From Ignavibacteria bacterium (GTDB lineage: Bacteria > Bacteroidota > Ignavibacteria > UBA10030 > UBA6906), in contig QKGJ01000362.1 in the NCBI GenBank assembly GCA_003251275.1, positions 1 to 34,744 on the forward strand: a DNA stretch of 34,744 bases, given 5' to 3'. The notes below the pieces were generated by a model. The model was not told the DNA's origin. It searched no databases and saw nothing but the letters and a program-made list of their open reading frames with translations. Positions 9,375 through 33,657 of this stretch are shown piece by piece. Positions within the stretch are counted from its first letter, which is position 1; every line of letters starts with the position of its first letter. Both the position numbers and the translations under genes were made by a program.

Positions 9375-10484
9375 TTATGAATAATATCGTACTGGATTGG
9401 TCGACGTCACCGCCGCTTCAATTCTAAGATGCTCCGATTTCGTTTCCATCGACTCGGTCAACTTCTTGACAATAGAGTAGACAACCGGTTGCTCGGTTTC
9501 GTAGTGACCGGCATCGATAAGCGCAATTCTACCTGCTGCATCATGAAAAGCATGGTATCGAACGTCCGCGGTGACGAACGCATCTGCTCCTTGTGCTATC
9601 GCTTCCAAGAGGAGTTCCGATCCGCCTCCCCCGCATACCGCAACACGCGAAATTGGTTTTTCCGGGTTGCCCACATACCGCAGGGCCTTCACCTTCAGCT
9701 TGTTCTGTATCTCTTTCAGAAATTGAGCGAGGGGAATAGTTTTTTCCAGTTCACCGACTACTCCCTCCCCATAGCCTCCGTGATAATTTGCAAGTGGGTA
9801 TCGATCGAACGCGACTTCCTCGTATGGATGCGCAGCTTTCAATGCGGTAACCACTTTCGGGGCGTTCCAGGAATCAACAATCATCTCCAATCGAACTTCT
9901 GATGAAGTTTCAAGCTGGTTCTTGGCACCGACTGTCGGGTGAGACTGACTGTTTCCCTGGAATGTCCCCGTTCCCTCGGTGCGAAACGAACAGTTCTCAT
10001 AATTTCCGATCACCCCGGCACCTGCTGACGCCATTGCAGATGCGACCCGATTAACGTGTTCTGCCGGAACAAATGTTACTACCTTTTCTTGTTCTTGATA
10101 TGGCTTCCGTAAGAAGTCGAGTTTTTGAAGACTCAGTGATTTGGCCAACGCAAAGCTTGTACCGCCGAACGTGAAATCCAAATTCGTGTGGGCGGTAATC
10201 AGATTCATTTCGTGGAGAATCATTTCGCGCAACACCGCTGCCGCTCCACCTGTCGTCGTAACACTCCGGAGGGGTTTGAAGAGAAGAGGATGATGGCTGA
10301 TAATCAGGTTTGCCTTTTTTGATACCGCTTCTTTCACAACATCGCTAGTGACGTCAAGAGCCACCAGGATGCCTGTGACCGTCGTGTGCGGGTTGCCGAT
10401 CTCAAGGCCGACGTTATCTCGCTCCCACGCTAACTGCTTTGGAGCCCATCGCTCAACAATATCCTGGATATCACGGACGATCAT
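9375..10484 (-). CDS. Nif3-like dinuclear metal centre hexameric protein (YqfO type)
   Basis: The 369-residue protein belongs to the Nif3 family, often called GTP cyclohydrolase I type 2 or YqfO; its cellular role is not settled. The metal-binding motifs are ISHHPLLFKP near residue 66, AHTNLD after it, and a C-terminal DAGHYETEQP segment. Between the two halves sits a CutA-like insert (VTFVPAEHVNRVASAMASAG through YEEVAFDRYPL), typical of the longer YqfO type. The chosen ATG at 10484 starts MIVRDIQDIVERWAP as in homologues. A frame extending to 10535 would run through the terminator hairpin and is rejected. It is probably the first gene of the leftward run and is preceded by a hairpin and U-tract, so attenuation is possible. 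Confidence 0.92.
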   Translation of the reverse strand: MIVRDIQDIVERWAPKQLAWERDNVGLEIGNPHTTVTGILVALDVTSDVVKEAVSKKANLIISHHPLLFKPLRSVTTTGGAAAVLREMILHEMNLITAHTNLDFTFGGTSFALAKSLSLQKLDFLRKPYQEQEKVVTFVPAEHVNRVASAMASAGAGVIGNYENCSFRTEGTGTFQGNSQSHPTVGAKNQLETSSEVRLEMIVDSWNAPKVVTALKAAHPYEEVAFDRYPLANYHGGYGEGVVGELEKTIPLAQFLKEIQNKLKVKALRYVGNPEKPISRVAVCGGGGSELLLEAIAQGADAFVTADVRYHAFHDAAGRIALIDAGHYETEQPVVYSIVKKLTESMETKSEHLRIEAAVTSTNPVRYYS

Positions 10485-10504: not shown

Positions 10505-10536
10505 AAAAAAAGTGTCCCGCTGATGGGCGGGACACT
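10505..10536 (-). terminator. Intrinsic terminator between the receiver/H-box gene and the nif3-like gene
   Basis: Read on the minus strand, a perfect 10-bp stem AGTGTCCCGC/GCGGGACACT encloses the loop CCATCA and runs into seven T (stem 10511-10536, T-tract 10505-10511). No T-tract follows on the plus strand, so it acts leftward. It ends only 20 bp before the nif3-like ATG. It may terminate the receiver/H-box transcript, or work as a conditional terminator in the leader of the nif3-like operon. Confidence 0.88.
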
Positions 10537-10544
10537 CAGTGTCG

Positions 10545-10685: not shown

Positions 10686-11348
10686 TCAGGTGTTTTGGAA
10701 GTCGATTCGGTCAAGATTAAGATCACGAAGTTTTGTGATTTCTTTCTCGATAATGCGAATATTCGTGTCGAGGGAGGCCACCATCGTTTTTTCCTCTGTC
10801 GACAGGTTGTGTTTTTTTAGGATATCAGTACTTATTTTCATTGCCGCAAGAGGATTGTTGAATTCATGGCACACGGTTACGATAAGTTCCTTAACGGCGT
10901 CCGCCTTTCTTCGGGCAATCAGGTCGTGCCTGAATTGGTCTGCAGTTAGTTTCTTTGATTTCGCTCGTTTGTAGATTTGAAATACTGTATCGGGAAAGCT
11001 TGCATTCATTACTTCCCCCTTCACCAGATAGTCTTCCACCCGATACTTGATTGCTTCAATGGCCAGTCGGAAGTCTTTTTCTGCTGAAAGAAAGACAACC
11101 GGGATTTCATTGCCCTTTTCACGAATAGTGCGTGTGATTTCCAGGCCGTTTTGATCAGGAAGATTGTAATCGAGAAGAAGCAGTTCGATCGAGGGGTTCG
11201 CGTCTAACGCGGCCAGTGCAGATTCCCCGTCGCCTTTCCAAATAGCACGAAAAGAAGCATTCTTGTAATTCGCAAGAAGGTGATCTGCAACTTTTGTGAA
11301 GGCCACGTCGTCATCGACGCAGAGAAGGGTAATGGAATTGTCAGCCAT
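10686..11348 (-). CDS. Response-regulator receiver fused to a HisKA-like dimerisation segment, no ATPase domain
   Basis: Residues 1-125 form a receiver domain with acidic pocket VDDD (11-13), phospho-acceptor Asp60 in LLLDYNLPDQNG, the Ser in VVFLSAEKD and Lys110 in DYLVKGE. Residues about 140-215 resemble the HisKA dimerisation and phosphotransfer helix pair, with an H-box VCHEFNNPLAAMKI around His161. The protein stops at 220 residues, without the N, G1 and G2 boxes of an ATPase domain, and no such domain occurs in any frame before the terminator 150 bp later. It cannot autophosphorylate by itself. It may be a phosphorelay intermediate, a dimerising receiver, or a partner for a kinase encoded elsewhere. 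It is divergent from the next two regulator genes, and a TTGCAA-17-TATCAT promoter precedes it. Confidence 0.85.
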   Translation of the reverse strand: MADNSITLLCVDDDVAFTKVADHLLANYKNASFRAIWKGDGESALAALDANPSIELLLLDYNLPDQNGLEITRTIREKGNEIPVVFLSAEKDFRLAIEAIKYRVEDYLVKGEVMNASFPDTVFQIYKRAKSKKLTADQFRHDLIARRKADAVKELIVTVCHEFNNPLAAMKISTDILKKHNLSTEEKTMVASLDTNIRIIEKEITKLRDLNLDRIDFQNT

Positions 11349-11558: not shown

Positions 11559-11927
11559 ATGGCCGACAAAAGCAAGATACTCGTGGTGGATGATGAAGAA
11601 TCATTGCGCACGGTGTTGAGTGGGGAACTAACGGGCGAAGGGTATGACGTCCGTACGGCTTCGGATGGGGACGAAGCAATTGCGGAATTAAAAAAGGACT
11701 CCTTTGACTTGTTACTCCTTGATATTAAAATGCCCCGGGTTGATGGATTTGAAGTGTTGAAATTTGTCAAGGAAAAGAACCCTGATACCAAAGTCGTGAT
11801 GCTCACGGCATTTGCGGATCTAAAAAATCCAATTGAAGCGAAGAAGTTGGGGGCTGAAGACTTCGTCAGTAAGCCATATGATCTGGTGGACCTTCTGACA
11901 ACGCTAGAAAGAGTCCTCCATGAATAG
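11559..11927 (+). CDS. Single-domain response regulator (CheY-like receiver)
   Basis: The 122-residue protein is a bare receiver domain: acidic pair VVDDEE (11-12), phospho-acceptor Asp55 in LLLLDIKMPRVDG, Thr in VMLTAFAD and Lys in FVSKPYD. No output domain follows; the frame closes and a new gene begins 37 bp later. The ATG at 11559 is chosen over a TTG 12 bases upstream because GGAG (11549-11552) lies at the right distance for the ATG. Its receiver closely resembles that of the next gene (shared VDDEESLRT, MPRV-G-EVLKFV and KPYD), suggesting duplication. It could be a phosphate sink or phosphorelay shuttle. The partner kinase is unknown. Confidence 0.93.
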   Translation: MADKSKILVVDDEESLRTVLSGELTGEGYDVRTASDGDEAIAELKKDSFDLLLLDIKMPRVDGFEVLKFVKEKNPDTKVVMLTAFADLKNPIEAKKLGAEDFVSKPYDLVDLLTTLERVLHE

Positions 11928-11964: not shown

Positions 11965-13332
11965 ATGTCCCGCAAGTTCAACCTTCTGATTGTTGATGAC
12001 GAGGAATCTCTCAGAACACTTCTGGAGAGCGAGCTTGAGGAATCAGAAGAATTCTCCGTCGATACTGCCGCGGACGGGGGGCAGGCAATCAATGCAATTC
12101 AGGCGAAGGTGTATGATATCGTGCTCCTTGATATCCGTATGCCTCGCGTGAATGGTATAGAGGTTCTGAAGTTCGTTCAAGAGTATTCTCCTACCACGCA
12201 AGTCATCATCCTCACAAACTACGCCGATGTAAAAACCGCGATCCAAACAATTAAGATGGGGGCATATGATTTTCTTGCAAAGCCATACGATATCGATGAG
12301 CTTTACAACACCATCCACCGCGCAATAGAGCGACGACAGCTTTTCATCGACAACAAGCTGATGAAAAACGAGCTTTCGAGAAAGGCGGGGAGCCCCGAAC
12401 TAATCGGCCAGAGCCCTTCATTTCTCAAGTTGATTGAAAGCGCAACGCGCGTGGCGGCGAGCGATTCATTTGTTCTTATACAGGGTGCATCAGGGACGGG
12501 GAAGGAACTCATCGCGAATCTCATCCATCGTCGAAGCCCGAGAAGCAGTCGCCCTTTTGTCGCCCTCAACTGTGCCTCGATACCGGACTCGCTGTTGGAG
12601 AGTGAACTGTTCGGTCACGAAAAAGGGGCATTCACCAACGCAATCAATACAAAGCAGGGGTTAGTGGAGGTTGCAAATGGCGGAACTCTCTTTTTAGATG
12701 AGGTCGGTGATATCAGCCCATCTATTCAGCCGAAGTTATTGAGGTTTCTCGAGACCGGAGAGTTTCGGCGGGTCGGGGGAACGAATCTCCTTGCAGTGGA
12801 CGTGCGCGTTGTTACTGCGACTAACAAAGACCTTCGGGAAGAAGTCAGCGCAGGGAGATTCCGGGAAGACTTGCTATATCGATTGAACGTCTTTACCTTG
12901 TTCGTTCCTACACTCGCAGAGAGGAAGGATGATATTCCCGTTCTTGCCGAGTATTTTCTTCAGAGGAAATCCAAGACGAAGAACCCAAAAAAGTTGACTG
13001 CCCAGGCTCTCTCACTCCTGATGTCGTATGAATGGCCAGGAAATGTCCGCGAGTTGGAGCATGTCCTCGAGGGTGCCCTTATTCTCTCCAGCGGGGATTA
13101 TATCGAGGAAGGCGATCTTTCTATGTACTTCCAACGACTGGGGACCATCGGTGAGGATGTGCCTAGCGAAGATTCTGGCAGTATATCGCTCGATGATCTG
13201 GAAAAAGTTCACATTGAAAGGGTTTTGCGAGATCAGAACTACAATCGATCAAGGTCAGCAGAAATATTGGGGATCAGTATCAAGACTCTTTATCTGAAAA
13301 TAAAGAAATATGGTCTTCCTGTTCCCGACTAA
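11965..13332 (+). CDS. Sigma-54-dependent response regulator (NtrC family)
   Basis: This 455-residue protein has three parts. A receiver (1-120) carries Asp56 in LLDIRMPRVNG and Lys in FLAKPYD. A sigma-54 interaction AAA+ domain (about 143-370) shows Walker A GASGTGKE (174-181), Walker B GTLFLDEVGD (240-249) and arginine-finger region RFREDLLYRLNV. A Fis-type helix-turn-helix (about 426-452) ends it, with NRSRSAEILGISIKTLYLKIKKYG. The sigma-54 contact loop reads GAFTNA (221-226) instead of GAFTGA. The conserved Thr is kept, so activity is likely but coupling may be altered. It is cotranscribed with the upstream single-domain receiver, and a terminator follows at 13414. Target genes cannot be inferred; no clear -24/-12 promoter was found in the window. 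Confidence 0.95.
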   Translation: MSRKFNLLIVDDEESLRTLLESELEESEEFSVDTAADGGQAINAIQAKVYDIVLLDIRMPRVNGIEVLKFVQEYSPTTQVIILTNYADVKTAIQTIKMGAYDFLAKPYDIDELYNTIHRAIERRQLFIDNKLMKNELSRKAGSPELIGQSPSFLKLIESATRVAASDSFVLIQGASGTGKELIANLIHRRSPRSSRPFVALNCASIPDSLLESELFGHEKGAFTNAINTKQGLVEVANGGTLFLDEVGDISPSIQPKLLRFLETGEFRRVGGTNLLAVDVRVVTATNKDLREEVSAGRFREDLLYRLNVFTLFVPTLAERKDDIPVLAEYFLQRKSKTKNPKKLTAQALSLLMSYEWPGNVRELEHVLEGALILSSGDYIEEGDLSMYFQRLGTIGEDVPSEDSGSISLDDLEKVHIERVLRDQNYNRSRSAEILGISIKTLYLKIKKYGLPVPD

Positions 13333-23088: not shown

Positions 23089-24744
23089 ATGACTCTTATC
23101 GGTTCCAAGATCCAAAAAGACGCCGCTTTTGAGAAGAACCAGGAACGCCTTTCTGAGATGATCAAACATCTCCACAGCGCAGGCGAGCATACCAAATTGG
23201 GAGGTGGAAAGAAACGGATAGAAAAGCTTCACCGGCAAAAAAAACTTGGCGCACGAGAGCGGATTGAGAAGCTGATTGACCCGGGGAGCACTTTTGTTGA
23301 AGTTGGTCTTTTTGCAGGTTATGAAATGTACGAAGAAGAGGGAGGAGCGCCTTCATCGGGAACGGTATTTGGGGTCGGAATCATCCATGGGCGTGAAGTG
23401 GTCATTGTTGCCAATGACGCCACCGTGAAAGCAGGGGCATGGTTCCCGATCACGTGTAAGAAGAATCTTCGTGCACAAGAAATCTCCATGGAGAACAAAC
23501 TCCCCATTATTTATCTCGTTGATTCCGCAGGAGTGTTTCTTCCGTTGCAGAGCGAGATCTTTCCCGACAAAGAACATTTCGGTCGGATCTTCAGGAACAA
23601 TGCGGTGATGAGTTCGATGGGGATCGTTCAAATCGCGGCGATCATGGGACCCTGCGTTGCAGGGGGTGCGTACCTTCCCATTATGAGCGATGAAGCACTT
23701 ATTGTTGATGGGACGGGGAGTGTTTTTCTCGCAGGGTCCTATCTCGTGAAAGCCGCAATCGGCGAGGAGATCCAGAACGAAGAACTTGGTGGGGCAATGG
23801 TGCATTGTGAGATCAGCGGCGTAACTGATCATCGGATGGCAAACGATGACGAGTGCCTGGCGAAAATACGGAGTATTGTGAACAAGCTTGGCGCCCGTCC
23901 CAAGGCCCTGTTTGACCGCGCGGAACCGGTTCCACCGAAATTCTCGCCTGACGAGATATACGGGCTTCTCCCCGTCGAGAGGACAAAGCCGTACGATATG
24001 CACCAAATACTTGCCCGCATTGCTGATGGCAGCGAGTTAGATGAGTACAAGGAGGGATATGGAAAATCTGTTATTACCGGTTACGCGAGAATTGATGGAT
24101 GGGCAGTTGGTATTGTGGCGAACCAGCGATCTGTGGTAAAGACGAAAAAGGGGGAGATGCAAGTGGGAGGGGTAATCTACAGCGATAGCGCTGACAAGGC
24201 AGCGCGTTTTATTCTCAACTGCAATCAGAAGCGGATACCATTGGTATTTTTCCAGGACGTCACAGGGTTTATGGTGGGAAGCAGAGCGGAACACGGAGGC
24301 ATCATCAAAGATGGTGCAAAGATGGTAAATGCAGTTGCAAACTCTGTTGTGCCAAAGTTTACCTTCATCGTGGGAAATAGTTACGGCGCTGGTAATTACG
24401 CCATGTGCGGCAAGGCGTATGACCCGCGTCTGATCTATGCATGGCCGACGGCGCAAATAGCGGTGATGGGTGGAAAACAAGCGAGCGAAACACTGCTGAG
24501 CATCAAAGTGCAGCAAATGGAAAAAGGGGGAAAGCACATTACGCCGGATGAACAGGCGCAACTTCTTGCCGATATCCAGGCGCGCTATGAACGTGAGACG
24601 GATCCATTCTATGCCGCTGCCCGACTCTGGGTGGATGGCATTATTGATCCGCTTGACACCCGTTTGATTGTTTCCCGTGGTATGGCGATGGCTATCAACA
24701 ATCCGGACATACCTTCCTTCAATCCCGGCGTCATTCAAACCTGA
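23089..24744 (+). CDS. Acyl-CoA carboxylase carboxyltransferase (beta) subunit
   Basis: This 551-residue protein is the carboxyltransferase half of a biotin-dependent acyl-CoA carboxylase. It transfers carboxyl from biotin to an acyl-CoA. The two crotonase-like halves are visible: the N-terminal half with YLVDSAGVFLPLQSEIFPD, GRIFRNNAVMSSMGI, GPCVAGGAYLPIMSDEA and the C-terminal half with FFQDVTGFMVGSRAEHGGI, VGNSYGAGNYAMCGKAYDP and AQIAVMGGKQASE. The pattern is closest to methylcrotonyl-CoA carboxylase beta and to the generic Bacteroidota enzyme, so leucine breakdown or propionyl-CoA carboxylation are both possible. The biotin carboxylase/carrier subunit is not nearby. The stop is 10 bp before the secreted-protein start. 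Confidence 0.92.
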   Translation: MTLIGSKIQKDAAFEKNQERLSEMIKHLHSAGEHTKLGGGKKRIEKLHRQKKLGARERIEKLIDPGSTFVEVGLFAGYEMYEEEGGAPSSGTVFGVGIIHGREVVIVANDATVKAGAWFPITCKKNLRAQEISMENKLPIIYLVDSAGVFLPLQSEIFPDKEHFGRIFRNNAVMSSMGIVQIAAIMGPCVAGGAYLPIMSDEALIVDGTGSVFLAGSYLVKAAIGEEIQNEELGGAMVHCEISGVTDHRMANDDECLAKIRSIVNKLGARPKALFDRAEPVPPKFSPDEIYGLLPVERTKPYDMHQILARIADGSELDEYKEGYGKSVITGYARIDGWAVGIVANQRSVVKTKKGEMQVGGVIYSDSADKAARFILNCNQKRIPLVFFQDVTGFMVGSRAEHGGIIKDGAKMVNAVANSVVPKFTFIVGNSYGAGNYAMCGKAYDPRLIYAWPTAQIAVMGGKQASETLLSIKVQQMEKGGKHITPDEQAQLLADIQARYERETDPFYAAARLWVDGIIDPLDTRLIVSRGMAMAINNPDIPSFNPGVIQT

Positions 24745-24754
24745 CGAACGAATC

Positions 24755-25510
24755 GTGCCCCGGAGAATTGCAGCAGGTTTGTTCTTAGTTCCTTTTTGCG
24801 TTGTCTTTCTTTTCGCGCAGGATTCGACGCGCGTCCCGAGGTTTGCCCCTTTGGATCCGATTCCGGAAATTGTCAGCTTTTTCGCGCCGTTTTTTTTTCC
24901 AAAGCTGTTCAACGATGTCCAGAGTCTTCGGCTTTACATTCAGGGGGAGCAATTCTCCGAGTTTCGGAGAACCTATGGGGATGCCCGTTCGCTCGACGCG
25001 ATTTTCTATAAGGCTGTTCGGCTGAGTTGGAACAATATTTACGAAGCTCTTTTCATCTCGTTGATTGCGACTCTCGATCACCGAACGGTAGGGATCGATC
25101 TTCCGATTATAGGTCCGATCCTCTGGTTCCCGCTGACGTCGGAATTTCCGGAGGAATTCCAACATCGTGTGACCGCTCTGCCCGATCATATCTATCATGA
25201 TTCACCGTCCGGGCCTGCGGGGGATCGGGATAAACTCCAGCACTTCTTTGGTTCGGCCTTTGTGACATATATAAGTGAGCGTACTGAACAAGCGGAGGCG
25301 ATGGGTGCGTTTATCGAGGTTTGGGAGGAGCGAATTGTTGTTGATGGAGCCCTGGACGATCGGGATATGCGCGCGAACAGACAAGGACAGCTTTTTGGTG
25401 CCGCGCTTCTCCAGGGGGGACCAACTCGTCCCTCAAGGTTTCTGGACATTGAATTTTCTACCGCTCAGCAAACAAAGCGAATCAGTGATTCTCTTGAGGT
25501 AATGCGATGA
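24755..25510 (+). CDS. Predicted secreted or membrane-anchored protein of unknown function
   Basis: I do not recognise a firm family. With the GTG start at 24755 the protein has 251 residues and begins with a signal-peptide-like segment: basic PRR, hydrophobic AAGLFLVPFCVVFLFA, then AQDS as a likely cleavage region. The middle is rich in aromatic residues (FFAPFFFPKLFNDV). The C-terminal third has DKLQHFFGSAFVTY followed by DRDMRANRQGQLFGAAL, a spacing that recalls YfiM/DUF2279-like lipoproteins and VanZ-like proteins, but only weakly. A longer frame to 24668 would overlap the carboxylase gene and hide the signal sequence. It overlaps the next regulator gene by 4 bp (ATGA), implying coupled expression. 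Confidence 0.75.
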   Translation: MPRRIAAGLFLVPFCVVFLFAQDSTRVPRFAPLDPIPEIVSFFAPFFFPKLFNDVQSLRLYIQGEQFSEFRRTYGDARSLDAIFYKAVRLSWNNIYEALFISLIATLDHRTVGIDLPIIGPILWFPLTSEFPEEFQHRVTALPDHIYHDSPSGPAGDRDKLQHFFGSAFVTYISERTEQAEAMGAFIEVWEERIVVDGALDDRDMRANRQGQLFGAALLQGGPTRPSRFLDIEFSTAQQTKRISDSLEVMR

Positions 25511-26871
25511 AATCGGTTTTAGTTGTGGATGACGAAAAAGCAATTCGCGATTCATTGAAGATGATTCTCGAGTATGCCAAGTATGATGTTACGTTCGCAG
25601 AAAATGGACAGGCAGCCTTGACGAAGGTTGTGGAAGATGTCTTCGACCTGGTTCTGCTTGACATCAAAATGGCTGGAATCGACGGTCTGAAGGTATTGGA
25701 GAAAATTCGGGAAATTCAGCCTGAACTTCCCGTGGTGATGATCTCCGGCCATGGGACGATCGAGACTGCGGTGGAGGCAACCAAACTCGGTGCGTATGAC
25801 TTCCTGCCGAAGCCGTTGGACAGAGACAAGCTGCTCATTGTGACGAGGAACGCGATCGAGAGAAAGCAGCTTCTCTCGGAAAATAAAGAAATGATGGAGA
25901 AGGTGCGTCGCCAGGGCGAGATTCTCGGCGAGAGTCCGAAGATCAAAGAAGTCCTTGCTCTCATCGGGAAAGTTGCGCAGACCGATGCGAAGGTGCTGAT
26001 CACAGGAGAAAATGGAGTTGGGAAAGAATTGGTCGCCCGGGCTATTCATCGACAGAGCAGGAGAAACGGGAAGCCGCTTGTGGAGGTGAACTGTGCTGCG
26101 ATTCCAAATGAACTTATCGAGTCTGAATTATTCGGACACGAAAAAGGTTCTTTCACGGGTGCCACCACACAGCGAGTGGGCAAGTTCGAGCTTGCCGACG
26201 GGGGAATTATTTTCCTCGACGAGATTGGGGATATGAACCTCAAGGCACAGGCAAAAGTCCTCCGGGTGTTGGAAGAGGGGAAGGTTGAACGGGTGGGAGG
26301 GAGCAGGCAGATTTCCATTGACGTCCGTGTTCTCGCGGCGACCAATCACGACCTTCCGGTTGCCATCAAAGAAGGAAGATTCCGTGAGGATCTTTTCCAT
26401 CGGCTGAATGTCATTCCCATCGTCGTTCCTCCCCTGCGGGAGAGACGCGAAGACATTCCTTTGCTTGCGGCGGCATTCGCGGAAGGTATTTGCACCCAGT
26501 ATGGGATGCGTCGCGTCAAATTCGCCGATGATGCGCTTCGAAAACTGCAGTCTATGGACTGGAGTGGAAACGTTCGTGAACTACGGAATGTGGTAGAGCG
26601 CCTCGTCATCATGAATTCCAGTGCGACGATTGATGCCTCGGAGATCGATCAGGGCCCTCTCGTCGGGAAGAGTAGTCCGGATGATCTTCTGAACATTGGT
26701 GGGACCTTTCAGGACTTCAAAGATCGCGCCGAAGCTGCTTATATCAAGAAACAGCTTGAAGCCCATAATTGGAATATCAGCAAGACCGCGGAGTCACTGG
26801 ACATCCAGCGGAGTCATCTCTACAACAAGATGAAGAAGTTTGGGCTGAACCGTGAAGACGAGCATTCCTGA
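25507..26871 (+). CDS. Sigma-54-dependent response regulator (NtrC/AtoC family)
   Basis: The 454-residue protein has a receiver (Asp52 in LVLLDIKMAGIDG, Lys in FLPKPLD) and a sigma-54 AAA+ domain with Walker A GENGVGKE (167-174), contact loop GSFTGA (214-219), Walker B IIFLDEIGD and RFREDLFHRLNVIPI. A C-terminal Fis-type helix-turn-helix follows, with NISKTAESLDIQRSHLYNKMKKFG. The Ala-to-Ser change in the contact loop is a natural variant in this family, so function is expected. It has the same domain order as the regulator at 11965 but is clearly diverged. The start overlaps the secreted-protein stop by 4 bp. The stop lies 4 bp from the thrC stop on the other strand, with no terminator between. 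The cognate kinase is not in the window. Confidence 0.95.
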   Translation: MKSVLVVDDEKAIRDSLKMILEYAKYDVTFAENGQAALTKVVEDVFDLVLLDIKMAGIDGLKVLEKIREIQPELPVVMISGHGTIETAVEATKLGAYDFLPKPLDRDKLLIVTRNAIERKQLLSENKEMMEKVRRQGEILGESPKIKEVLALIGKVAQTDAKVLITGENGVGKELVARAIHRQSRRNGKPLVEVNCAAIPNELIESELFGHEKGSFTGATTQRVGKFELADGGIIFLDEIGDMNLKAQAKVLRVLEEGKVERVGGSRQISIDVRVLAATNHDLPVAIKEGRFREDLFHRLNVIPIVVPPLRERREDIPLLAAAFAEGICTQYGMRRVKFADDALRKLQSMDWSGNVRELRNVVERLVIMNSSATIDASEIDQGPLVGKSSPDDLLNIGGTFQDFKDRAEAAYIKKQLEAHNWNISKTAESLDIQRSHLYNKMKKFGLNREDEHS

Positions 26872-31057: not shown

Positions 31058-33568
31058 CTATGGTTCATCACGCCATCGAATGATTTTCTTTTCGTAATCG
31101 CTGGCAAGTTCATCTGCTGTCTTCTGGTCTTGTGCTTCTGCGCTGATATGGAATAGTGGTCGCTCTTTGTCGGGGATGAGCAATGCTGACGCGCTTCCTT
31201 CACCGTTGCCAAGATAGATCTTTACGCCGTCCACGAGATCCCGGCGAAGCCCGTTGGAATCATTCATAATATGCCGCATTACCTTTCCTTTGTGTTCCCA
31301 GGAGCAGTTGACATCGCGGCGTGTAGCAAACAGTTTCGGGATTTCCCTGTCGATGTCTCCCAGCCGTTTTCCGGTCTTTCCCATCATTTCAAGAATCTTC
31401 GCAACAGAGTACATTGCATCCGTCGCAAAGAAAAAGTCCGTGAATATGAACCCCCCTTTTGTTCCTCCAACGAACTGGGCGCTCTTTTTTGCCGCTGCCT
31501 CCATCATTGCGAGGTGACTGTCGCGAGTGCGAATTACCTCGACATCATGTTTTCTGGCAACGACATCGATTTCCCCTGAAGATGTAATCGGGACGGCGAC
31601 TGCGCGAACATTTGGGTCCGTTCGCATATGCAGATCGGCTACAATGGTGAGCAATCGGGAACTGTCGATTTGTTCGCCACGCTCGTTCACCATATAGAGC
31701 TTCTCACCACCTGCATCGATGAGGCAGCCCACGTCATACTTCAAAGAGGTGACGATGTGGGAGAGCTGGTGCAATGAGTACTCCCATTCATCCTTGTCCC
31801 GGGTGAGCTTTCGCGGGTCTAGGTGGGCATTGAGAGCCACTACCTGACATTCGAAGGAACCGAGAATGATGGGAAAGATTGTTGACGCTACGCCATTGGA
31901 ATAGTCGATGACAATCTTGAATGCGCTCTTGTTGATGGTGGGGACATCAATTGACGAAAGAAATTTCTGTCGGTAAATTTCCGTGGTCCGTTCTGGAAAC
32001 GAGATCGATCCCACCGACTCACGCGGTGCTCGCGGAAAATCCTCGCCGAGGAAGAGTCGCTCCACCGATTTTGTCTTTTTGGAGGGTAGATCCTTGCCGT
32101 CTGCATCAAAGAAGATTATGTCCGTGAGAGTTTTATCTGATGGGGAACGACGCACGTGAATGCCCCCTGCTTCACGGCCGCTGCTCAGTTCGTGCCGTAG
32201 AAGAGGGATCGAAATAGCGCGAAGGTCAAACGTGTGTACTCCGGCGGAAATGAGACCGCAAATGAGCGCCCGGTTCATCATTCGAGAAACGTTGTCTGAA
32301 TCGCGACAGGTAACCACCGTCTTCCCGGCGCCGATAAACGCGCCGTAGGCCGCGCCGAGCTTCGCCCCGAACTCAGGGTTCATTTCGATGTTGGAAAGTC
32401 CGGTAATCCGTGATTCCGTAAAAAGTTCTCTGAGCCATTTGTCTTCCCAGACGAGGCTGCGGGTCAGGACAGCTCCCTCCTCAACAACCTTTTCCGGCCA
32501 GAGTTTGATGTTTGCGGAGAGCTTCGCCTTTCTTCCGATCCAACACGAATCACTGATGAAGACGTTATCCGCGATAACTGCCTTCTCGCCAATGGAACAT
32601 TTTGTTCCGATGACGTCGGACGTCAATTCGGCGTTATGTCCGACAATTACATCGTTCCATAAGACGGAATTGGTGATGTGAACGCCTTCGCCAATGGAGC
32701 AATTATCCCCGATGACGCAGTTTGAGAGATGAACCCGGTCGGCAATAGAGCAGTTTTTTCCGATCAGCACGGTACCTGAAACATGTATATTGTCCTGCTT
32801 GATGGAAGTACCCTCACCCACGTACAGCGATCCCTTTTTCTTCCCATCGAAATCAACATGGGCAATGCCGTTGAGCGCGTCGATGTGCGCCTCTTGGTAC
32901 TCATTTAGATTTCCGACATCCCGCCAATAGCCGTCTGCAACATATCCATAGAGGCCTGCGTCCTGACGGAGCAGGAGCGGGAAGAGGTCTTTGCTAAAAT
33001 CGAAATCCTCCTGATACGGAACCTTTTCAAGAACTTCAGGTTCGAGGATATAAATGCCCGTATTGATAGTGTCACTGAATACTTCACCCCATGACGGTTT
33101 TTCGAGGAAGCGCGTAATCTTTCCTTCCTCGTTTGTTATAACGACCCCGAAAGCGAGTGGGTTCTTTGCATGGGTGAGAACGATTGTTGCTTTCGCCTTC
33201 TTCTCCTCATGAGCGGCGATGGCTCTTGTCAGATCAAAGTCGGTGAGAACATCCCCGCTGATAATGAGAATGCGCTCGTCCATACTCTTGGTCGCGTTCC
33301 GAACACTTCCCGCGGTTCCATAGTCAGCTTCTGCCCGCACATAACGCATCGTTACCCCAAAATTACTGCCGTCTCCGAAGTGGCTTGTAATCACCTCGGG
33401 ACTGTAGTAGAGGGTGGAAATCATATCCGTTATGCCATGCTTCTTGAGAAGGGCGACGATGTGCTGCATCATCGGCTTGTTCGCCATCGGCACCATTGGC
33501 TTCGGGATATTGCATGTAAGCGGACGCAACCGGGTGCCAAACCCACCGGCCATTATCACTGCTTTCAT
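31058..33568 (-). CDS. Sugar-1-phosphate nucleotidyltransferase fused to a degenerate phosphohexomutase-like domain
   Basis: The 836-residue protein has three parts. Residues 1-230 are a nucleotidyltransferase (MAGGFGTRLRPLT, NIPKPMVPMANKPM, ISGDVLTDFD, FLEKPSWGE), probably forming GDP-mannose or a related NDP-sugar. Residues 245-365 are left-handed beta-helix repeats (ISIG-type hexapeptides such as IGKNCSIADRVHLSNCVIG). Residues about 385-836 resemble phosphomannomutase, but every active-site loop is altered. The phospho-serine loop reads GGIHVRRSPSDK, the metal loop DAGGEKLY, the sugar loop GGTKGGF and the phosphate loop PDKERP. The mutase half is therefore probably not catalytic. Such fusions exist in several phyla, often annotated as mannose-1-phosphate guanylyltransferase. 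The ATG at 33568 is chosen because homology starts at MKAVIMAGG; a TTG at 33649 would sit inside the promoter. Confidence 0.9.
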   Translation of the reverse strand: MKAVIMAGGFGTRLRPLTCNIPKPMVPMANKPMMQHIVALLKKHGITDMISTLYYSPEVITSHFGDGSNFGVTMRYVRAEADYGTAGSVRNATKSMDERILIISGDVLTDFDLTRAIAAHEEKKAKATIVLTHAKNPLAFGVVITNEEGKITRFLEKPSWGEVFSDTINTGIYILEPEVLEKVPYQEDFDFSKDLFPLLLRQDAGLYGYVADGYWRDVGNLNEYQEAHIDALNGIAHVDFDGKKKGSLYVGEGTSIKQDNIHVSGTVLIGKNCSIADRVHLSNCVIGDNCSIGEGVHITNSVLWNDVIVGHNAELTSDVIGTKCSIGEKAVIADNVFISDSCWIGRKAKLSANIKLWPEKVVEEGAVLTRSLVWEDKWLRELFTESRITGLSNIEMNPEFGAKLGAAYGAFIGAGKTVVTCRDSDNVSRMMNRALICGLISAGVHTFDLRAISIPLLRHELSSGREAGGIHVRRSPSDKTLTDIIFFDADGKDLPSKKTKSVERLFLGEDFPRAPRESVGSISFPERTTEIYRQKFLSSIDVPTINKSAFKIVIDYSNGVASTIFPIILGSFECQVVALNAHLDPRKLTRDKDEWEYSLHQLSHIVTSLKYDVGCLIDAGGEKLYMVNERGEQIDSSRLLTIVADLHMRTDPNVRAVAVPITSSGEIDVVARKHDVEVIRTRDSHLAMMEAAAKKSAQFVGGTKGGFIFTDFFFATDAMYSVAKILEMMGKTGKRLGDIDREIPKLFATRRDVNCSWEHKGKVMRHIMNDSNGLRRDLVDGVKIYLGNGEGSASALLIPDKERPLFHISAEAQDQKTADELASDYEKKIIRWRDEP

Positions 33569-33628
33569 ATGCGTCGTTCGGTTGGTGAGGTTGAAAGAGG
33601 AATTGAGAATTTCAATCAATCCGGCATC

Positions 33629-33657
33629 AAGATATAAAAAATCGAGCAAGAATTCAA
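33629..33657 (-). promoter_or_regulatory. Candidate sigma-70 promoter for the fusion gene/ptsN/lgt run
   Basis: On the minus strand TTGAAT (33652-33657) and TATCTT (33629-33634) are separated by 17 bp, about 60 bp before the fusion-gene ATG. Both boxes match four of six consensus bases. It lies in the 118-bp gap after the cystathionine gamma-synthase-family stop, the largest gap in this leftward run. Confidence 0.45.

Follow-up and report, generated by a model that had tools for sequence, protein, structure and literature searches.

What can a bacterial protein do that joins a receiver domain to the phospho-acceptor hairpin of a histidine kinase and has no ATPase domain? Annotations often list as kinases proteins in which a kinase-type phospho-acceptor domain comes without an ATPase domain, although such proteins cannot be kinases; the available text of an archaeal census (PMC5847659) says as much of archaeal HisKA proteins without HATPase. 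The question is raised here by a protein that we call QA, encoded in a 34,744-nucleotide stretch from an Ignavibacteria bacterium (contig QKGJ01000362.1; hereafter the window). The reading that we put forward, and in which our belief and our doubt are evenly balanced, is that QA acts in histidine phosphotransfer as a DHp dimer without a kinase function: its His161 would exchange phosphate with the products of two neighbouring genes, REC1 and NtrC1, and its own receiver would act as a gate. With likely partners next to it, and with natural His-only and Asp-only versions, QA offers a testable case of a DHp domain alone. The features of the locus are collected in Table 1.

Table 1. Coordinates of QA, of its predicted domains and phospho-sites, and of neighbouring features in the window.
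Feature	Position	Strand	Remarks
QA, receiver + HisKA/DHp without ATPase domain	10686..11348	-	220 aa; ORF reads 11348 -> 10686
Receiver domain of QA, residues 5-113	11010..11336	-	Pfam PF00072 and predicted fold
Asp60 codon of QA, predicted receiver phospho-acceptor	11169..11171	-	
DHp part of QA, residues 118-209	10722..10997	-	AlphaFold2 model and PF00512
H-box segment of QA, residues 157-175	10824..10880	-	most conserved part of the family
His161 codon of QA, predicted phospho-acceptor histidine	10866..10868	-	
Terminator-like hairpin between QA and NIF3	10510..10537 (10537-10510)	-	11 pairs, then T-run
REC1, single-domain receiver	11562..11927	+	121 aa; in divergent orientation to QA; all phospho-site residues kept in 51/51
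NtrC1, sigma-54 activator (receiver + AAA + Fis-type HTH)	11965..13332	+	directly downstream of REC1

The initial annotation of this DNA had the extent and the length of the gene right and gave no strand, which is minus. It described a complete receiver site, followed by a HisKA-like helix pair around HEFNNP and by nothing that resembles an ATPase domain, and each of these elements is confirmed. Pfam finds Response_reg at residues 9-111 (E 1.5e-17) and HisKA (PF00512) at residues 154-210, with 27.6 bits for a cut-off of 26.9. Neither HATPase nor HPt (PF01627) is matched up to E 10, bearing in mind that the HMMER filters drop weak matches; of the two phospho-acceptor types that had been considered, HisKA and HPt, it is HisKA that the segment matches. 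The receiver site has D12, D13, D60 and K110, with Ser88 where most orthologues use Thr and without a proline after K110. The H-box, HEFNNP from H161 onwards, conforms to the H-E/D-x-x-T/N-P pattern. The chain ends 59 residues past His161, and a degenerate ATPase-like C-terminal domain of the ChpT or PhyT type is absent. NCBIfam provides no named family for QA, the best 25 of 80 matches all being under their cut-offs.

On its own strand, QA is followed by NIF3 after a gap of about 150-200 bp, the exact length of which depends on the NIF3 start codon. The hairpin in this gap is the sole one found between positions 10400 and 11700, where shuffled sequences lead one to expect 1.5, and it is hence a weak signal alone. 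Promoter-like sites near QA and REC1 are also a weak signal (4 for 2.1 expected), and sigma-54 promoter matches are not in excess in the window (14 with up to 2 mismatches, for 14.2 expected). The window encodes a second sigma-54 response regulator (25507-26871), preceded by a 280-aa ORF (24668-25510) with no Pfam match at E<=0.001. At positions 31058-33649, it also encodes an 863-aa protein in which a nucleotidyltransferase with hexapeptide repeats is joined to a phosphoglucomutase/phosphomannomutase.

The same short architecture is found in relatives. Orthologues of QA are present in 47 of 60 of them according to the match list (G045 being confirmed by its locus), and a scan of named genomes yielded 46 loci, mostly from Ignavibacteriae/Ignavibacteria MAGs. 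Three of those loci (L081-L083) are receiver-only matches and were dropped from the QA set, in which near-identical rows were merged. PF00512 is matched at E<=0.01 in 40 of 40 aligned orthologues, and thus the weak HisKA score of the single QA sequence is not a matter of chance. HATPase_c is matched in none of the 40, although the initial annotation had allowed for homologues that would all carry an ATPase domain. Two trivial explanations were rejected. Truncation by a frameshift or an assembly error is at odds with the short form of all the independent genomes, and the space before NIF3 is too small for an ATPase domain; an unrelated coiled coil as C-terminal half is at odds with the HisKA matches of the orthologues. 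Among 149 genomes of the class, matches to QA-like (A-type) proteins or to a paralogue, B, described below, occur in several families. In a search of 247 genomes of the phylum, the matches at E<=1e-24 outside the class come from four genomes of one genus, in which only the receiver of frames of 644-725 aa is matched. On the basis of these searches, the QA family looks confined to the class Ignavibacteria.

In the AlphaFold2 model of QA (mean pLDDT 86.4, pTM 0.63), an uninterrupted helix (residues 118-162) runs from the receiver into the DHp part. After a break near Pro166, the model continues with a helix at residues 166-178 and with the second helix of the hairpin at residues 184-209. The number of residues between K110 and H161 is almost fixed, with a spacing of 51 in 61 of 63 orthologues. 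The top Foldseek match of QA is LvrB (PDB 8vc9, E 1.9e-9), which is also matched by profile across residues 6-207. A search of the PDB with the DHp half alone gave weak matches only, the best at E 0.074 and LvrB at 0.34. The VIA-align rows for QA span mainly residues 3-134 and barely cover the DHp part. We infer that QA is a dimer.

Conservation among the A-type proteins is concentrated on the histidine. His161 is present in 63 of 63 orthologues, HEFNNP is found in all 59 near-complete rows, and both Glu162 and Asn165 are invariant in the latter. Four partial rows (L067, L030, L072 and L074) account for the two denominators, as they are included among the 63 and enter neither the tree nor the counts over 59; the His and Asp counts refer to the loci that were fetched, a subset of the matches in the relatives. 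Of the 59 rows, 47 have a fully canonical receiver site. Asp60 has been lost in five (5/59, or 5/63 with the partial rows), which requires at least three independent changes on the tree, and the H-box remains unchanged. In L163, the receiver has no acidic pair, no Asp and no Lys, and the H-box is perfect. Over the 63 rows, the receiver and the linker helix have mean pairwise identities of 0.47 and 0.46, respectively; the value rises to 0.82 for DHp helix 1 and to 0.91 for residues 157-175, before falling to 0.38 for helix 2. Selection thus acts on the reactive site of QA and on the adjoining helix, the face on which response regulators dock in histidine kinases, as described in the available text of PMC3433190. 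The earlier suggestion that the histidine might serve for dimerisation only is disfavoured by this pattern, with an H-box present in 59/59 rows and a second helix that varies freely enough to reach so low an identity.

The best clue to the target of this histidine is the divergent REC1-NtrC1 pair next to QA, which the initial annotation did not mention. Of 43 loci of named genomes (L038-L080), 38 have the pair next to QA; of the other five, three are at contig ends (L038, L078, L080), and two have another gene at that place (L071, L077). REC1 is more constant than the receiver of NtrC1, with mean pairwise identities of 0.79 vs 0.62 over 51 loci. Among the 60 relatives, 46 have QA and REC1, one (G052) has QA only, seven have REC1 only and six have neither; G034 was counted as REC1-positive on account of a REC1 piece at a contig end. 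For three of the seven with REC1 only (G006, G010 and G018), a contig ends at the relevant spot, and the other four (G024, G048, G051 and G059) form a single genus, g17, in which REC1-NtrC1 is kept and QA is absent. It follows that the pair can work without QA in that genus. In one g17 locus (L154; L155 and L156 also have no QA), the site where QA would be expected has genes for a GHMP kinase and for a TonB-plug protein, and no histidine kinase is found there. As the flanking genes are conserved as well, the linkage of QA and REC1 could partly reflect inherited gene order.

More distant families vary in this arrangement. Family f9 has that of the window in three of three loci, and in family f3, both QA and REC1 persist, unlinked. 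In families f12 (four loci) and f20 (two loci), a short REC-DHp gene with an intact H-box histidine lies immediately upstream of NtrC1, and it is REC1 that is unlinked from the REC-DHp gene. The one f12 NtrC1 that was tested has the window NtrC1 as its best match in the genome of the window, at 540 bits vs 512 for the next. In the single f12 locus that was scanned (L184:3619-8277), the REC-DHp and NtrC1 genes directly follow ftsA and ftsZ. As for REC1 in these genomes (L202 and L203; also L201 and L204), it comes after a run of genes in which L202 and L203 have one for a secretin and L203 also has one for a PilN-like protein, and it may serve a type IV pilus or type II secretion there. No linked cognate kinase was seen beside QA, REC1 or NtrC1 in the loci examined, the unassigned neighbours of which were partly identified.

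Taken together, these features suggest how QA might work. Without an ATPase domain, it cannot phosphorylate itself, so that His161 can be loaded only from another protein; the earlier proposal of phosphorylation in trans is supported on this point. His161 would then exchange phosphate with partner receiver domains. We favour REC1 and NtrC1 in this role because His, Glu, Asn and the face of the helix next to them are constrained, because REC1 is so constant and because gene arrangements tie QA to NtrC1. Phosphate would most likely pass from REC1~P to His161 and on to NtrC1, or else in reverse, draining NtrC1~P; the direction cannot be read from sequence, as a HisKA H-box serves phosphatase and transfer reactions alike. 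Carriers of this sort have been described: in the Pak-SdrG-PhyT-PhyR pathway, PhyT supplies PhyR with phosphate that it takes from SdrG, a single-domain receiver (PMC5898713, available text), and PhyK takes it from MrrA to PhyR (PMC5964349, likewise). The receiver of QA shares a rigid helix with His161 and would be the on-off control of this activity, much like its counterpart in the kinase LvrB. Judging from the model and from this analogy, it is probably the gate, and the continuous helix of fixed length the mechanical link. As Asp60 can be lost, gating by phosphorylation would not be universal. Phosphotransfer by QA, its dimeric state, its partners, the direction of flow and the gating are thus what we infer from the data at hand.

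The fate of a second REC-DHp copy, B, mirrors that of QA. The A and B proteins form sister clades, supported at 100/100 (59 rows) and 99/97 (29 rows), respectively; four candidates that fell outside the B clade in the tree (L104, L106, L195 and L197) were left out of the B set. The receiver site of B is fully canonical in 29 of 29 proteins, and the position of His161 has kept its His in three and lost it in 26, with an identity of 0.28 among B proteins in the H-box segment. Evolution has thus separated the two phospho-sites: in A, the His is untouchable and the Asp dispensable, and in B it is the other way round. The f12 and f20 REC-DHp proteins branch outside A and B, with an intact H-box and a B-like tail, and therefore the ancestor of A and B likely carried both sites, the copies having diverged in opposite directions. 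This tree has flagged long branches, which makes the outer placements less sure than the split between A and B. Further short REC + HisKA-like proteins from the same order (L104-L112), with H-boxes such as HHINN or HELNNP and some without the His, represent a wider radiation of kinase-less REC-DHp proteins.

At most B loci, a large frame directly precedes B. A full scan of this frame in two relatives (L085 and L098) showed a PAS/GAF protein with HisKA and HATPase, and a kinase-type H-box was detected by pattern in three more (L086, L097 and L103). In the genome of the window itself (L113:1025-3694), the PAS/GAF protein before B has neither HisKA nor HATPase, and B has no His; the B branch seems to be decaying there. 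It is tempting to imagine that duplication in Ignavibacteria split the phospho-sites between A, which keeps His and is losing Asp, and B, which keeps Asp and has lost His, so as to make them the two halves of a cross-protein relay. Phosphate would go from the PAS/GAF kinase to the B receiver, then to the A His and finally to NtrC1 or REC1, possibly by way of A-B heterodimers, a scheme that we consider decidedly unlikely.

Other roles for QA have to be weighed against phosphotransfer. It might be a dedicated phosphatase, a bare DHp dimer that dephosphorylates NtrC1~P (or REC1~P) under the control of its receiver and without any relay, which we hold to be unlikely although worth serious thought. 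Its Asn165, invariant in 59/59 rows, provides the T/N residue of the E/DxxT/N motif, and tested HisKA proteins required no other residue of the motif to act as phosphatases, according to the available text of PMC3510030; the archaeal census suggests such an activity for HisKA proteins without HATPase (PMC5847659, in the part available). The loss of QA in a genus that retains REC1-NtrC1 is also easier to reconcile with a modulator than with an indispensable step of a relay. However, His161 and Glu162 vary no more than Asn165 does, and a phosphatase that relies on T/N only would not need them; moreover, the presence of two receivers, one of them single-domain, resembles a relay. As for DHp fragments alone, that of EnvZ was without apparent phosphatase activity in one test, contrary to an earlier report (PMC8971529, available text). 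In a split kinase, a second histidine kinase, docked on QA or heterodimerised with it, would use its ATPase domain to phosphorylate His161 in trans. The invariance of Glu162, typical of kinase H-boxes, would then make sense, and the genome has 48 HATPase_c matches. Nevertheless, no intact gene for an ATPase-only partner stood out when the HATPase matches without HisKA were screened by frame length. They include three small proteins of 147-161 aa, the size of anti-sigma kinases, and L127 is cut by a contig end. In addition, 24 of 30 kinase loci have a kinase-type H-box in a pattern scan, and in none of these 24 is it the HEFNNPLAA of QA. We therefore regard a split kinase as quite improbable.

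The two remaining possibilities concern the relation between the sites of QA itself. Movement of phosphate between Asp60 and His161 in the same chain or dimer, as first proposed for this protein, is compatible with the window QA, in which the Asp is intact, and with the many orthologues (47/59) whose receiver site is fully canonical. As a general mechanism, it is weakened: Asp60 is missing in 5/59 rows through no fewer than three independent changes that left the H-box untouched, and the receiver of L163 has decayed. With a rigid continuous helix that keeps the two residues apart in the model as well, a one-protein relay appears very improbable. Finally, the hairpin might be a structural relic that merely dimerises the receiver, with an H-box devoid of chemistry. 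The archaeal protein AF_1472, with a receiver and HisKA and no HATPase, has been read in this manner (PMC5847659, available text), and paralogue B, without the His in 26 of 29 cases, may be exactly such a relic. B then also illustrates what an unconstrained hairpin looks like, with its identity of 0.28 in the segment that is the most conserved element of A-type proteins, and we find this explanation scarcely credible for QA.

The architecture of QA belongs to a class that is already known; what is new is a family conserved across the class Ignavibacteria, its partners and the split fate of its phospho-sites. In the literature searched, to which subscription papers and preprints were mostly external, we found no short REC-DHp protein that had been studied experimentally. 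The phosphotransfer role that we favour for QA calls for comparison with proteins that shuttle phosphate on a DHp-type hairpin. One of these, Spo0B, has a degenerate ATPase-like C-terminal domain. Both ChpT and Spo0B carry phosphate on the His of a four-helix bundle made of two hairpins, which QA, with its predicted hairpin, may resemble; ChpT continues into a Bergerat-like domain at its C-terminus, where ATP is not used, whereas QA has no such domain and has a receiver in front (PMC3433190, available text). PhyT and PhyK of Alphaproteobacteria come closest to the proposed role, as they use a DHp-type His between a single-domain receiver and an output regulator (PMC5898713 and PMC5964349, available text), and PhyT is encoded at the locus of the output regulator, as QA would be with NtrC1 in that role. 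PhyT has an HRxxN motif of the HWE/HisKA_2 type, is anchored in the membrane and has an ATPase domain that has degenerated (PMC5898713, same text), unlike QA, which is of the HisKA type, with a receiver and without any remnant of an ATPase domain.

In terms of domain content only, QA resembles archaeal proteins listed as 'HisKA, no HATPase' and REC-HisKA, which have a conserved His and sometimes a REC domain. The entries of that census mostly have PAS/GAF domains in contrast to QA, and none of its REC-containing HisKA class, such as AF_1472, had been studied experimentally, according to the available text of PMC5847659. Similarly, the available description of P2CS (PMC2716373) has classes for incomplete HKs and for phosphotransfer proteins, and one for HisKA proteins without HATPase and receiver. 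By its build, QA is closest to LvrB, a REC-controlled histidine kinase of Leptospira, in which the last helix of the receiver likewise continues into the DHp helix that bears the phospho-His, also numbered His161. LvrB goes on to a CA (ATPase) domain and autophosphorylates, whereas QA ends after the DHp (PMC13269768, available text).
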